Assembly: GCF_024505045.1 (NCBI RefSeq) | Contig: NZ_JANIBM010000004.1 | Location: 1-64,000 of the forward strand | Origin: Methylomonas aurea | GTDB lineage: Bacteria > Pseudomonadota > Gammaproteobacteria > Methylococcales > Methylomonadaceae | Direction of reading: 5' to 3' | Length of the DNA stretch: 64,000 bases | The notes under the pieces: generated by a model | Told to the model about the DNA's origin: nothing | What the model saw: the letters and a program-made list of their open reading frames with translations, nothing else | Database searches by the model: none | Position numbers and translations under genes: made by a program | In this document: positions 1,487-6,720 of the stretch, one piece after another | How positions within the stretch are numbered: position 1 is the first letter of the stretch | Layout: each line of letters begins with the position of its first letter

Positions 1487-1502
1487 TGTGCTCTTGCAAA
1501 CA
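1487..1502 (+). promoter_or_regulatory. NifA upstream activator sequence 1
   Basis: TGT-N10-ACA (TGTGCTCTTGCAAACA) is an exact match to the NifA enhancer consensus. It lies about 84 bp upstream of the -24 element of the nifB promoter, a normal distance for NifA action on sigma-54 RNA polymerase. Confidence 0.8.
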
Positions 1503-1508
1503 TCGGCC

Positions 1509-1524
1509 TGTGATATTTGCGACA
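1509..1524 (+). promoter_or_regulatory. NifA upstream activator sequence 2
   Basis: This is a second exact TGT-N10-ACA match (TGTGATATTTGCGACA), starting 22 bp after the first, roughly two helical turns. It therefore lies on the same face of the DNA as the first site, as expected for cooperative NifA binding. Confidence 0.78.
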
Positions 1525-1585
1525 AGCTAAACGGTGTTGGATTGTAAAACATATGTAAATCAGTATGTTATGGATAAATAAGAAC

Positions 1586-1601
1586 TGGCATGCCCTGTGC
1601 T
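1586..1601 (+). promoter_or_regulatory. Sigma-54 (-24/-12) promoter of the nifB operon
   Basis: TGGCATGCCCTGTGCT fits TGGCAC-N5-TTGCW, with the invariant GG and GC at the right spacing. It lies 37 bp upstream of the nifB start, leaving room for a short leader. No other -24/-12 pair was found in the cluster, so nifB to nifQ may be read from here. Confidence 0.85.
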
Positions 1602-1637
1602 ACCTCTCTTGCAACCCATTTAAGCGAGGTGAAGATC

Positions 1638-3131
1638 ATGGAATTGCCAGTTTTGAACGAAACTCCCGCGGCCAGCGCAGGCGGCTGCTCCTCCCACTCC
1701 TGCGGCTCATCCGACGACCAATTAGGCCATTTGTCCGACGAGATCCGGGCCAAAGTGGAAAATCATCCGTGCTATTCGGAAGACGCCCACCATTATTTTG
1801 CCCGCATGCACGTCGCGGTGGCGCCGGCCTGTAACATCCAGTGCCATTACTGCAACCGCAAATACGACTGCTCCAACGAGTCGCGGCCGGGCGTGGTTTC
1901 GGAACTGTTGACGCCGGAACAAGCGGTAAAGAAAACCATGGCGGTGGCGGCCAACATTCCGCAAATGACCGTGCTCGGCATCGCCGGCCCTGGCGACCCG
2001 CTGGCCAATCCGGAACGCACCTTCGAAACCTTCCGCCGCCTGAGCCAGGATGCGCCGGACATCAAACTGTGCGTATCGACGAATGGCCTGGCTTTGCCGG
2101 AATCGGTCGAGGAACTCTCCAAACACAACATCGACCACGTCACGATCACGATCAACTGTGTCGATCCGGAAATCGGTGCCCAAATCTATCCGTGGATTTT
2201 CTGGGAAAACAAACGGATCAAGGGCGTGAAGGGCGCGAAGATTCTGATCGAACAGCAGCAAAAAGGTCTGGAAATGCTGACCGCCAGAGGCATTCTGGTC
2301 AAAGTCAACTCTGTAATGATTCCCGGCGTCAACGACAAACACTTGGCCGAAGTCAGCAAAATCGTCAAAGCCAAGGGCGCTTTCCTGCACAACGTCATGC
2401 CGCTGATTGCCGAAGCCGAACACGGCACCTTCTACGGCGTAATGGGCCAACGCGGTCCGACTCAGGATGAGTTGATGGACCTGCAAGACGCCTGCTCCGG
2501 CGACATGAACATGATGCGCCATTGCCGGCAATGCCGGGCCGACGCGGTCGGTCTGCTGGGCGAAGACCGCGGTGACGAGTTCACGATGGACAAGATCGAG
2601 GCGATGGAAATCGATTACCAATCGGCGATGGAAAAACGCAAGGTGATTCACGAAGCGATTGCCGAGGAAATGCACAGCAAGCGCGCCGCGAAAGCCGAAA
2701 AAGCCGCCAGCCACGCCGACGAGCCCAAACTGAACACCCGTCCGGTGTTGATGGCCATCGCCACCAGTGGCCAGGGCGTGATCAACCAGCACTTCGGTCA
2801 TGCCAAAGAGTTCTTGATCTACGAAGCCTCGCCGGACGGCGTGCGCTTCATGAGCCACCGCAAAACCGATCTGTATTGCAGCGGCGACGACACCTGCGGC
2901 GACGGCGAGAGCGTGTTGCAACGCACGATCCGGGCGCTGGAAGGCTGCGAAGTGGTGCTGTGCTCCAAGATCGGCTACGAGCCTTGGGACATGCTGGAGC
3001 AAGCCGGTATCCAACCCAACGGCGAGCACGCGATGGAACCGATCGAGGACGCGGTCATGGCGGTTTATAAGGAAATGGCCGCGGCCGGCAAGCTGGATGA
3101 GAGCAACGCCGAGCAGCGCGCAACCGCTTAA
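1638..3131 (+). CDS. nifB: NifB, radical SAM FeMo-cofactor biosynthesis protein
   Basis: NifB fuses Fe-S clusters around a SAM-derived carbide to form NifB-co, the 8Fe-9S-C precursor of the nitrogenase cofactor. The 497-residue protein has the radical SAM motif C65-x3-C69-x2-C72 (ACNIQCHYC), a SAM-binding region (GIAGPGDPLANPE) and a C-terminal NifX-like domain from about residue 370 (GVINQHFGHAKEFLIYEA). This is the long two-domain form common in proteobacteria. The start at 1638 is chosen because GAGGTGA precedes it at good spacing and the frame's earlier ATG at 1590 lies inside the sigma-54 promoter. Control by NifA is indicated by two upstream sites. A perfect palindrome separates it from the next gene. 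Confidence 0.97.
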   Translation: MELPVLNETPAASAGGCSSHSCGSSDDQLGHLSDEIRAKVENHPCYSEDAHHYFARMHVAVAPACNIQCHYCNRKYDCSNESRPGVVSELLTPEQAVKKTMAVAANIPQMTVLGIAGPGDPLANPERTFETFRRLSQDAPDIKLCVSTNGLALPESVEELSKHNIDHVTITINCVDPEIGAQIYPWIFWENKRIKGVKGAKILIEQQQKGLEMLTARGILVKVNSVMIPGVNDKHLAEVSKIVKAKGAFLHNVMPLIAEAEHGTFYGVMGQRGPTQDELMDLQDACSGDMNMMRHCRQCRADAVGLLGEDRGDEFTMDKIEAMEIDYQSAMEKRKVIHEAIAEEMHSKRAAKAEKAASHADEPKLNTRPVLMAIATSGQGVINQHFGHAKEFLIYEASPDGVRFMSHRKTDLYCSGDDTCGDGESVLQRTIRALEGCEVVLCSKIGYEPWDMLEQAGIQPNGEHAMEPIEDAVMAVYKEMAAAGKLDESNAEQRATA

Positions 3132-3178
3132 CAACCCCGGCCGGGTTGCACAACGCAAACTCGGCCATCGAATCCAAT

Positions 3179-3202
3179 GCCGGGTTACGGCCGTAACCCG
3201 GC
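3179..3202. repeat. 24-bp perfect palindrome between nifB and fdxN
   Basis: GCCGGGTTACGG followed by its exact reverse complement forms a strong GC-rich hairpin in the nifB-fdxN spacer. No T-run follows, so it is more likely an mRNA stability or processing element than a Rho-independent terminator. Confidence 0.6.
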
Positions 3203-5213: not shown

Positions 5214-5356
5214 GCCGGATGCGTGTTCAACAGTTTTAGACATACGTCACGCGTTGAGCCGGTGCAGTAGGCCGGCTAAGCCGATCCCAGGACGGATAGG
5301 CGAACCCCGCCGGCTTTCGAGCGGGCGGGAATCGGGAATCTTTGCGGATTCCAAAA

Positions 5357-5383
5357 CGGCAGTCCTCAGATTGGAGGTTGCCG
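5357..5383 (+). repeat. Hairpin in the spacer before the 2Fe-2S ferredoxin
   Basis: CGGCA...TGCCG encloses CCTC/GAGG, giving a stem of about nine pairs with a small bulge. It lies 34 bp upstream of the ferredoxin start in a 204-bp gap. There is no T-run. The spacer shows no convincing second sigma-54 site, so this may be an mRNA-stabilising or processing hairpin. Confidence 0.4.
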
Positions 5384-5417
5384 AGATGACACTTAAATAG
5401 CGTAAGGAGTTTTTTCA

Positions 5418-5705
5418 ATGGCCAAAGCGACCATTACATTCGAAGACATCAACGTCACCGTCACCGTACCTGCCGGGACCCGAATCATCGAGGTTTCCGA
5501 GAAGGTCGGTTCCGGTATTACCTACGGCTGCCGAGAGGGCGATTGCGGCACCTGCATCATGAAAGTGACGTCGGGCTGGAATCATCTGACCGAGCCCTCG
5601 GTATTGGAAGACAAAATTCTGCGGGAAAACATGGCCGGCAAGCACAACCGTCTGGCCTGTCAGGCGCAGGTGTTGGGCGGCGAGATTTCCGTCAAACCGG
5701 TGTAA
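5418..5705 (+). CDS. 2Fe-2S plant-type ferredoxin
   Basis: This 95-residue ferredoxin has the plant-type cluster motif C38-x4-C43-x2-C46 ([10 protein letters not shown]) and a fourth cysteine at C81 (RLACQAQ). The fold is the beta-grasp of short bacterial and plant ferredoxins. AAGGAG precedes the ATG at good spacing. It lies 20 bp before the FeSII gene and is related to it in motif layout, so the pair may have arisen by duplication. Likely roles are electron supply to nitrogenase or to the upstream flavodiiron protein; the sequence does not decide which. Confidence 0.9.
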
Positions 5706-5725
5706 GCCGTTCAAGGAGACAACAC

Positions 5726-6076
5726 ATGGCATTAGTCACATTTTCAAGCCCGGAATACCGGGACAAAACCGTTTACGCCGTCGCCGGCAGCCACACCCAA
5801 ACCGTGTTGAAGTTGGCGCTGGAAAACAAAATCCCCATCAACTTCGAATGCGAAGACGGGGAATGCGGTACCTGTCTGGTCAAAGTCACCAGTATCGACA
5901 AGAAAAACCAACGCATGGGCGGTCCGCTGACCGAAAAAGAAAAAGCGGTGCTGAAACAGCTTGGCAAGGTCACCAGCGAAGAGCTGGAGAAAATGATCGT
6001 CGACGACCTGCCCTGCGAATGGCGTCTGGCCTGCCAGATGATCGTCAGGGACGAAGACATCCGCGTTGAGTATTAG
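5726..6076 (+). CDS. feSII: FeSII (Shethna) protein, nitrogenase oxygen-protection ferredoxin
   Basis: The 116-residue protein closely resembles the Azotobacter vinelandii FeSII protein along its length. Shared features include FSSP near the N-terminus, CEDGECGTCLVKV holding C42, C47 and C50, a helical insert LTEKEKAVLKQLGK, and DLPCEWRLACQ with C103. FeSII binds a 2Fe-2S cluster and, when oxidised, locks the MoFe and Fe proteins into an inactive complex shielded from oxygen (conformational protection). The insert between the cysteine motifs separates it from ordinary ferredoxins. AAGGAG precedes the ATG. It sits between a ferredoxin and nifQ in the same transcription direction. Confidence 0.92.
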   Translation: MALVTFSSPEYRDKTVYAVAGSHTQTVLKLALENKIPINFECEDGECGTCLVKVTSIDKKNQRMGGPLTEKEKAVLKQLGKVTSEELEKMIVDDLPCEWRLACQMIVRDEDIRVEY

Positions 6077-6108
6077 TCCGTTCCATCCCTAAACGCCGGA
6101 GGACCGAA

Positions 6109-6720
6109 ATGAATTGCATGCCTGCTGTAGAACCGACCCAAACCATTCCGAGTCTAGCGGTTACGCCAAAGTCACGGCAGCAAATTTATCAGGAACTCGC
6201 GGCGTGCGCCGGCTGGTCGCCCAACAGCGTCTGGCTGGCGCAAATCATCGCCAGTTGGGCGGTGGGAGAGGGCGCGTTGCCGGATCGGCTGGGTTTGGCG
6301 CCTGAGCAATTCGTCGCGTTGCTGGCCAGCCATTTTCCCGGGTACGCGTTGGATGAGGCCGCTGTGTCCGGCGTCACACTGGATTACAGCCGGATGCTGG
6401 AAAAGCAGGATCTGGAAACGCTATTGCGCCAATTCGCCGCGCAACCGGGCGCCGATACCGAATGGCTGATTGCGCTGATCGTCGCCGCCTGCCTGGGCAG
6501 CGACCATTTGTGGCAGGATTTGGGTTTGTGGTCGCGCGCCGATCTGTCGGCGATGCTGGCCTACAACTTCCCCGACTTGGTCGCGCGCAACAGCAAGGAT
6601 ATGAAATGGAAGAAATTTATGTACAAACAGCTCTGCGAAGCCGAGGGTTTGTACGTCTGCCGGGCGCCGTCCTGCGAAGTCTGCAAGGACTACCAGCAGT
6701 GTTTCGGGCCGGAGGATTAA
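6109..6720 (+). CDS. nifQ: NifQ, molybdenum donor for FeMo-cofactor
   Basis: NifQ carries a Mo-Fe-S cluster and delivers molybdenum to the NifEN/NifH stage of FeMo-co assembly. The 203-residue protein ends with the family signature C184-x4-C189-x2-C192-x5-C198 (CRAPSCEVCKDYQQC), preceded by MKWKKFMYKQLCEAEG, a typical NifQ block. A strong GGAGG precedes the ATG. It lies 32 bp after FeSII and is the last recognisable gene of the nif unit; the following region to 6961 is non-coding. Having nifB and nifQ in one unit links the iron-sulfur and molybdenum inputs of the cofactor. Confidence 0.95.
   Translation: MNCMPAVEPTQTIPSLAVTPKSRQQIYQELAACAGWSPNSVWLAQIIASWAVGEGALPDRLGLAPEQFVALLASHFPGYALDEAAVSGVTLDYSRMLEKQDLETLLRQFAAQPGADTEWLIALIVAACLGSDHLWQDLGLWSRADLSAMLAYNFPDLVARNSKDMKWKKFMYKQLCEAEGLYVCRAPSCEVCKDYQQCFGPED

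Follow-up and report, generated by a model that had tools for sequence, protein, structure and literature searches.

A conserved proteobacterial nif operon carrying flavodiiron protein, FdC-type ferredoxin and FeSII genes in Methylomonas aurea: a possible oxygen defence and a predicted structured RNA before fdxC

The 64,000-nucleotide (nt) stretch of Methylomonas aurea DNA analysed here (contig NZ_JANIBM010000004.1, positions 1 to 64,000; in the following, the window) carries near the start of its contig the genes nifB, fdxN, nifO, a flavodiiron protein (FDP) gene, the [2Fe-2S] ferredoxin gene fdxC, an FeSII gene and nifQ, which form an unbroken plus-strand series from 1638 to 6720. The genome comprises 4.81 Mb on 93 contigs. 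We are discussing this series as a nitrogen fixation (nif) operon in which cofactor genes are combined with a possible defence against oxygen, and which contains a predicted structured RNA ahead of fdxC. The features of the locus are as follows.

1487–1502 and 1509–1524, plus strand: two NifA-type upstream activator sites (TGT-N10-ACA); pattern matches with comparative support
1586–1601, plus strand: sigma-54 type -24/-12 element TGGCATGCCCTGTGCT; one mismatch to the supplied consensus
1638–3131, plus strand: nifB (TIGR01290, 655 bits against a cut-off of 344)
3132–3220, plus strand: nifB-fdxN spacer with strong hairpins (folding z about -4.0 in the M. aurea copy)
3221–3505, plus strand: fdxN-type 2[4Fe-4S] ferredoxin (YfhL-family model, 71 bits, under the 86-bit cut-off; top PDB match 3eun)
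3511–3936, plus strand: nifO, an ArsC/Spx-like, nitrogenase-associated protein (TIGR01616, 174.5 against 109 bits)
3933–5213, plus strand: FDP, FprA-like, of the core two-domain kind (ODP and flavodoxin domains; PDB 1ycf, E 2.2e-68)
5277–5420, plus strand: predicted four-hairpin structured RNA (model R1), ending at the fdxC start codon, with GGA in the first loop
5418–5705, plus strand: fdxC, [2Fe-2S] ferredoxin, by sequence the counterpart of Rhodobacter capsulatus FdC (FdIV) (PDB 9I2A, E 2e-37)
5726–6076, plus strand: FeSII (Shethna protein II)-like [2Fe-2S] protein (Azotobacter vinelandii FeSII, PDB 5ffi, E 8.2e-28, full length)
6109–6720, plus strand: nifQ (PF04891, E 5.9e-57, 193 against 27 bits)

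NifB, NifO and NifQ all score above the cut-offs of their respective family models; the nifQ product gave no match in NCBIfam at E 0.001. An alternative, longer nifB frame opens at 1590, within the promoter; the likely start is at 1638. The genes are tightly packed, with nifO and the FDP gene overlapping by ATGA (3933–3936) and with gaps of 5 nt between fdxN and nifO, 20 nt between ferredoxin and FeSII and 32 nt between FeSII and nifQ; the spacer between FDP and fdxC measures 204 nt. Genes for nifA (640 bits) and nifH (470 bits), both over the cut-off, are located on different contigs of the same genome, and in a NifB tree the M. aurea protein clusters with named Methylomonas genomes, being 95% identical to NifB of M. 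fluvii, as befits a methanotroph of the Methylomonas type. The gene identities and the one-direction order that had been claimed in a first-pass annotation of this DNA are, thus, borne out by family models, PDB matches and coordinates.

The FDP is composed of an ODP domain (E 1.2e-25 at 47–236) and a Flavodoxin_1 domain (E 6.6e-13 at 271–401). Because the domain search revealed no rubredoxin or reductase domain, the protein is predicted to need an external electron donor. All seven diiron ligands, previously pointed out as candidates only, are kept (H92, E94, D96, H97, H159, D178 and H235), and all 127 nif-type FDPs that were fetched (119 distinct; each at least 60% identical to the M. aurea FDP) retain them. 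The same 127 sequences have Lys and Tyr as second-sphere pair (K65/Y277 in M. aurea), whereas Asp and Ser occupy these positions in 14 of 14 other gammaproteobacterial FDPs, which are taken as NorV-type and are 30–35% identical to the M. aurea protein. The flavorubredoxin NorV of Escherichia coli shares core domains and ligands with the nif-type FDPs but differs in its additional rubredoxin domain and in having D52/S262 as the pair. In the O2-selective FDPs of Entamoeba and Giardia, the pair is Lys and Tyr, and the exchange of Tyr for Ser in the Entamoeba protein raised its activity on nitric oxide (NO) (PMC13133992). The pair is, hence, suggestive, if weak and not decisive, evidence in favour of O2 over NO as the substrate.

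Both the Lys/Tyr pair and the missing rubredoxin domain speak against a role of the FDP as an NO reductase that shields nitrogenase and NifB from NO in bearers that also denitrify, as does the FeSII of the same operon, which concerns O2. This role is brought into play by the top PDB matches of the FDP, which are NO-reducing FDPs, and by the names of some bearers, which mark them as denitrifiers (Thiobacillus denitrificans, Denitromonas); on balance, we consider it unlikely. It is plausible, judging from its diiron ligands and its second-sphere pair, that the protein consumes O2 to protect nitrogenase. Soluble O2-reducing proteins tied to nitrogenase protection include Flv3B of Anabaena heterocysts and Anf3 of Azotobacter, the latter providing the precedent for an oxidase that guards nitrogenase (PMC6579470). 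However, cyanobacterial FDPs carry a flavin-reductase domain (PMC4390876) and Anf3 is a flavocytochrome, in contrast to the two-domain FDP of M. aurea with its neighbouring ferredoxin.

For FdxC, the PDB match to 9I2A stands apart, every other match having an E-value of 2.4e-8 or worse, and 57 of 92 aligned residues, counted from the alignment, are identical to R. capsulatus FdC. In that organism, fprA-fdxCN head a NifA-dependent operon (PMC6925177), FdC has been suggested as the donor of FprA (PMC10936413), its potential is given as -285 mV, and both oxidase and NO reductase functions of FprA have been discussed (PMC12223475). PMC10936413 calls the role of FprA unknown, and PMC10936413 and PMC12223475 describe what FprA and FdC do in nitrogen fixation as unknown or not determined. 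The likeness to M. aurea resides in the order of nif cluster A, where a NifA-dependent FprA-type gene is followed by the FdC gene and fdxN; the two flavodiiron proteins are likened by type and setting, not by sequence. Unlike the single run with nifB, nifO and nifQ in M. aurea, the fprA-fdxC operon of R. capsulatus is separate from nifB and nifQ, with the FeSII-like fdxD in another cluster, next to nifHDK (PMC6925177). FdxD has been associated with protecting the Mo nitrogenase of R. capsulatus from O2 (PMC6925177, PMC10936413, PMC11301756). A nif-regulated FDP-ferredoxin pair and a nif-regulated FeSII-like protein are, therefore, already known from that bacterium (PMC6925177, PMC10936413, PMC12223475).

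The FeSII-like protein aligns over residues 1–116 to residues 1–115 of A. vinelandii FeSII, with a length of 116 residues versus 122 in A. vinelandii. The complex of A. vinelandii FeSII with nitrogenase has been viewed by cryo-electron microscopy (PMC12585515), and FeSII-like nif-linked genes have been proposed to be protective in R. capsulatus, Gluconacetobacter and Acidithiobacillus (PMC11301756, PMC2607301); conformational protection by FeSII is described as demonstrated in two Azotobacter species only (PMC11301756).

In a survey of 151 sampled genomes of the order of M. aurea (Methylococcales), a close FDP (70–100% identity) was found in 62, with the next match down at 27% identity (E 8.7e-15); nifB was present in 80 genomes, FeSII in 74 and an fdxC-type ferredoxin in 72. 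Of the FDP-bearing genomes, 60 contain nifB, and the FDP occurs in two of the 71 nifB-less genomes (G087 and G120), both fragmented drafts, of which G120 has a contig stopping 17 nt upstream of the FDP match. FDP and fdxC are neighbours on one strand in all 62 FDP genomes, at a distance of 24–565 nt, and fdxC is adjacent to FeSII in 58 of the 60 FDP genomes having both; in G070 and G091, FeSII is found on the opposite strand, some kilobases off. FeSII was unmatched in G072, where the contig stops inside the ferredoxin gene, and in G111, where the ferredoxin match is shortened. Where both nifB and the FDP are present, nifB is located at most 2 kb upstream in 51 of 60 genomes; in the remaining nine, the FDP block is separated by 10.7–49.3 kb (45–49 kb in G070, G091 and G139), or is found on the opposite strand or a different contig. 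FDP, ferredoxin and FeSII, thus, behave as a linked set, as had been proposed. A variant arrangement was seen at locus L038 (genus g39; positions 4599–9427), where the FDP-fdxC pair has nifO, a SagB-like nitroreductase-domain protein and a DUF6156 protein as neighbours, with an FeSII-like gene some kilobases off; nifD, at 12372, shows this to be a nif region.

Beyond the order, a survey of 398 sampled genomes of the phylum yielded the FDP at 66–74% identity in four genomes besides M. aurea, all among the 43 nifB bearers (one of them, G226, with an in-frame TGA in the assembly), and 14 other FDP matches (E up to 1e-30) at 30–35% identity. A scan of named genomes matched at least 594 stretches, 572 of which were confirmed; the best 80 of these 572, ranked by similarity to the first row of alignment A1 and, hence, an uneven sample, were analysed. 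They come from Beta- and Gammaproteobacteria, including Gallionella, Sideroxydans, Thiobacillus, Azonexus, Dechloromonas, Zoogloea, Accumulibacter, Thiorhodococcus, Thiodiazotropha, Halothiobacillus and Methylomonas. Among these best 80, fdxC (80/80), FeSII (77/80) and nifQ (70/80) were found downstream of the FDP, and nifO (72/80), fdxN (70/80) and nifB (66/80) upstream of it; the FDP-fdxC gap was about 13–33 nt in 56, and the complete seven-gene set was present in 55. Incomplete sets partly coincide with short stretches. The three FeSII-less stretches all end within about 450 nt of the FDP, and in 12 of the 14 stretches without nearby nifB the FDP lies at most 1.6 kb from the stretch start; L107 shows no nifB in 10 kb, and in L097 nifB is 7.8 kb from the FDP. 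Despite sufficient flank, nifO is missing from L098, L099, L132, L138, L150 and L152, and nifQ, despite ample flank, from L106, L110, L139 and L144. A plasmid search (E limit 1e-40) gave 30 records of 29–38% identity with no nif-type FDP among them; a further search, covering the family of G337, gave 0/99 and is uninformative.

On the basis of its gene order, nifB-fdxN-nifO-fprA-fdxC-fesII-nifQ is a widely conserved proteobacterial nif operon. The first-pass annotation, which had called for a search of further genomes for this order, had regarded a flavodiiron gene in a nif operon as unusual and the three genes between nifO and nifQ as inserted into an Azotobacter-like unit; while the gene identities, the promoter and the linked set of that interpretation stand, these two descriptions are not supported. 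The unit of A. vinelandii, which we take to be nifB-fdxN-nifO-nifQ with no FDP, fdxC or FeSII between nifO and nifQ, presumably matches the order of those four genes in M. aurea, and the same short form is met in L043 and L044 (genus g16), in the family of M. aurea. In the NifB tree, which does not include Azotobacter and whose wider root is unsettled, L043 and L044 nest with support in family f1 amid bearers of the three genes, and because of this nesting the short form points to a loss of the three genes, which explains it better than insertion.

Nif regions can move as blocks, and the NifB tree, which mostly tracks taxonomy, sets Zoogloea with Halothiobacillus; one might, thus, regard the three genes as passengers of a nif island that owe their order to joint transfer and not to joint work. 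However, the FDP-fdxC pair stays together even where the block lies away from nifB, and nif-type FDPs keep 65–74% identity across families and classes, which renders mere passage very improbable.

Within the window, the numbers of promoter-type sites are within chance expectation: six activator-type sites were counted against eight expected, loose -24/-12 matches numbered 300 where 351 would be expected, and a correctly spaced pair of both occurred once, against a mean of 0.5 and a maximum of two in 20 shuffles. Window counts alone were, therefore, rejected as promoter evidence, and the promoter is accepted because its sites recur across nifB upstream regions. The comparative set comprised 74 such regions, namely, the window and 73 loci with at least 300 bp upstream, many of them related. 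TGT-N10-ACA was present in 74/74 (shuffle mean 7), and a -24/-12-like site 50–160 bp downstream of it in 45/74 with a stricter pattern (shuffle mean 0.37) and in 70/74 with a looser one (shuffle mean 0.03), which had been relaxed after the misses of the stricter pattern were known; the regions without a pair under the looser pattern are L142, L148, L150 and L154. The predicted sites for NifA/sigma-54 control, thus, exist and are conserved upstream of nifB, where such a promoter had been postulated. In the 300 nt upstream of the other genes, activator sites are at or below chance for the FDP (0/87), fdxC (2/88), FeSII (1/85) and nifQ (0/80), with 5/77 for nifO versus 1.4 by chance and 1/77 for fdxN versus 2. 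A single NifA-type promoter is the simplest reading, and the seven genes are likely to form one transcription unit.

The FDP-fdxC spacer folds more stably than its shuffled versions (z -3.25 against 200 shuffles). In a survey of 20 loci—Methylomonas and one locus of another genus (L016)—the pre-fdxC spacers gave z-values of -1.8 to -5.3 in 19 and +0.5 in L016, and the nifB-fdxN spacers, long enough to be scored in 18, gave -2.7 to -7.1; in L016, the preceding gene is not nifB. The other junctions are overlapping, 3–21 nt long or, in the case of FeSII-nifQ, unstructured. The operon is, thus, laid out as nifB, then fdxN-nifO-FDP, then fdxC-FeSII-nifQ, with RNA structure at both divides. While the nifB-fdxN hairpins vary in sequence between Methylomonas strains, as if different palindromic elements had been swapped into the spacer (3132–3220 in M. 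aurea), an alignment is possible for the 140 nt that directly precede fdxC. In other lineages, long FDP-fdxC spacers are mixed, some being strongly folded and some not; L023 and L131 contain very long, near-perfect hairpins (z -10.5 and -9.4).

The consensus structure of the pre-fdxC RNA, obtained with RNAalifold, contains four hairpins with 29 pairs, 17 of which are changed on both sides. The first covariation alignment (A3) comprised 16 of 21 spacers, leaving out the near-copies L006, L155 and L156 and the divergent L020 and L158; L016 and L037, which belong to one genome of another genus, were outside it and do not match model R1. In A3, 91.2% of the cells at paired positions were paired versus 80.4% after shuffling (0/500 shuffles as high), with 55 both-side-changed cells versus 18.6 (0/500), a covariation score of 0.397 versus 0.207 (0/500; at most 0.168 when the structure was slid) and 40 pair types versus 34.2 (6/500). 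Because dropping divergent rows flatters the count, the analysis was repeated on all 21 R1 matches (19 distinct; alignment A4), giving 94.3% paired cells versus 80.5% and a covariation score of 0.450 versus 0.213, with at most 0.135 when slid. The covariation support is strong but not independent, because A4 is a structure-fitted alignment and these same data had also yielded the first structure. GGA in the first hairpin loop is kept in 20 of the 21 matches, L020 having GGT.

The covariance model R1 found one match per genome in 16 of the 19 genomes of genus g1, each ending at the ferredoxin start codon; 15 of these had served for training, and the remaining one (G024) is a near-copy. G115 matched in local search only (29 bits), and G136 and G141, which have no match, also have no operon. 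M. lenta (L158), outside the training set, scored 46.5 bits. Outside genus g1, there were weak multiple matches only, in G018 (eight) and G034 (three), with E-values of 2.9e-6 to 6e-3, and these, like two weak extra matches in L158 (E 0.53 and 0.59), may be repeats or chance. DNA similarity search indicated a single copy in the M. aurea genome. Rfam 15 gave no match in 5200–5430 at E up to 1 and, at gathering score, three tRNAs only in the whole window. The Methylomonas element is, by covariation, a new four-hairpin RNA unmatched in Rfam.

Such a conserved RNA before fdxC would probably set the level of fdxC-fesII-nifQ apart from that of the upstream genes, which would fit the need for FeSII in amounts matching nitrogenase. 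We consider it an even bet that the leader (5277–5420) is an undescribed cis-acting Methylomonas RNA, present once per genome, that splits the nif operon into parts with different protein output. Its hairpin with the GGA loop lies near the GGAG of the ribosome-binding site and could be a switch of the CsrA/RsmA type; alternatively, the array of hairpins could act as a barrier in RNA processing or stability and thereby lift FdxC, FeSII and NifQ to the amounts required for shielding nitrogenase, while NifB and FDP stay low.

Gene identity, order, conservation, ligands, promoter sites and the covarying RNA are what sequence comparison can provide, and on these we base the proposal, to which we assign a probability of roughly 0.55, that a two-layer O2 defence is built into the cofactor operon. 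NifA and sigma-54 would switch on the seven genes as a unit during nitrogen fixation, and FdxC, a moderately low-potential [2Fe-2S] ferredoxin, would pass electrons to the FDP, which would most likely reduce stray cytoplasmic O2 to water. FeSII, oxidised by O2 getting through, would bind nitrogenase in an inactive, protected complex. In this way, the operon would link NifB and NifQ, which serve cofactor assembly, and FdxN, which supplies electrons, to active and passive O2 defence.

Several observations weigh against this proposal. The FDP is dispensable, being missing from 20 of the 80 nifB-bearing genomes of the order; L043 and L044 manage with the short form, and L049 (genome G075) has fdxN-fdxC-FeSII-nifQ with no match to nifO or FDP, which may have been lost together. 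Among the bearers of the operon, there are also purple sulphur bacteria (Thiorhodococcus, Lamprocystis), which are not aerobes in the usual sense. The stretch HNKK near the N-terminus of A. vinelandii FeSII is only partly kept, reading RDKT in M. aurea, so protection by FeSII cannot be assumed. Bare -24/-12-like strings are in excess upstream of nifQ (65/80, shuffle mean 12.6) and of the FDP (46/87, shuffle mean 25); they are without activator sites and within upstream coding sequence, and are probably conserved coding sequence, yet there may be an internal sigma-54 start. Jouanneau is said to have reported in 2000 that an R. capsulatus fprA mutant had lower nitrogenase activity with N2 fixation apparently unaffected, microaerobically too. 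Lys and Tyr placed in the E. coli FDP left its substrate preference unchanged (PMC13133992). The open full-text literature yielded no expression, biochemical, mutant or phenotype data on this operon.

The remaining objections concern the ferredoxin and lead to the main rival of O2 defence. R. capsulatus without FdC doubles in 43.7 versus 10.3 h under N2-dependent photoheterotrophic conditions, i.e., about fourfold more slowly, a defect seen with the Fe nitrogenase (PMC10936413); the effect of FdC loss is described as anaerobic, and fdxN, when supplied, can replace fdxC (PMC12223475). Because FdC loss slows growth on N2 without O2, FdxC probably does more than feed an O2 scavenger. FdxC and FDP might, thus, serve metallocluster assembly or redox balance, with the FDP as an electron sink against over-reduction of FdxC and O2 protection being incidental. 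The potential of FdC is too high for direct feeding of nitrogenase, and metallocluster assembly is named as a possible separate pathway (PMC10936413 and PMC12223475 for the former, PMC12223475 for the latter). Both genes sit between the cofactor genes nifB and nifQ, and fdxC occurs without FDP in 10 of the 72 fdxC-bearing genomes of the order. However, in four of the FDP-less genomes (L045–L048), fdxC stands alone, the fetched stretch containing no other gene of the seven; of its neighbours, two were scanned in L045 and three in L047, and these are not nif genes. Likewise, diiron ligands intact in every fetched nif-type FDP are what a genuine oxidase or NO reductase would show, and the linked FeSII points to O2. 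We regard the role in assembly or redox balance as possible but doubtful, and return to O2 defence as the preferred reading.

Further genes lie around the operon. Window positions 1–1249 contain, on the minus strand, an open frame of 416 residues with 3.2 tandem 291-nt repeats, which runs off the contig end and looks by composition like a repeat-rich surface protein. Just behind nifQ, genes for a BrnT toxin and a CopG-type antitoxin are found on the minus strand (6965–7592), followed on the same strand by a TonB-dependent receptor (7830–10313).

No description of the seven-gene order was found in the open full-text literature, which is weak evidence of absence given that most subscription papers were outside the search; nor is the order described in the available parts of the partly overlapping PMC2607301, PMC11168628, PMC3912193, PMC3937718 and PMC12929197. 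The available parts of an Azoarcus RNA sequencing study name fdxD and contain nothing on an FDP (PMC8467165). The parts of the system are known and nif-linked, and their combination in a single operon is a variant; the RNA element, seen in one genus, is new.

In many Beta- and Gammaproteobacteria, an FprA-FdC-type pair is locked together with FeSII, nifB and nifQ; what seemed the oddity of one phototroph thereby becomes a broad feature, for which genomes with and without the set form a natural test panel. Where nitrogenase is to be transferred into hosts exposed to oxygen, the compact three-gene set would merit a trial. With the folded RNA, there is a new element that is concrete and can be tested and, if its proposed function is true, the fdxC leader would tie the conformational protection of nitrogenase to control at the RNA level.

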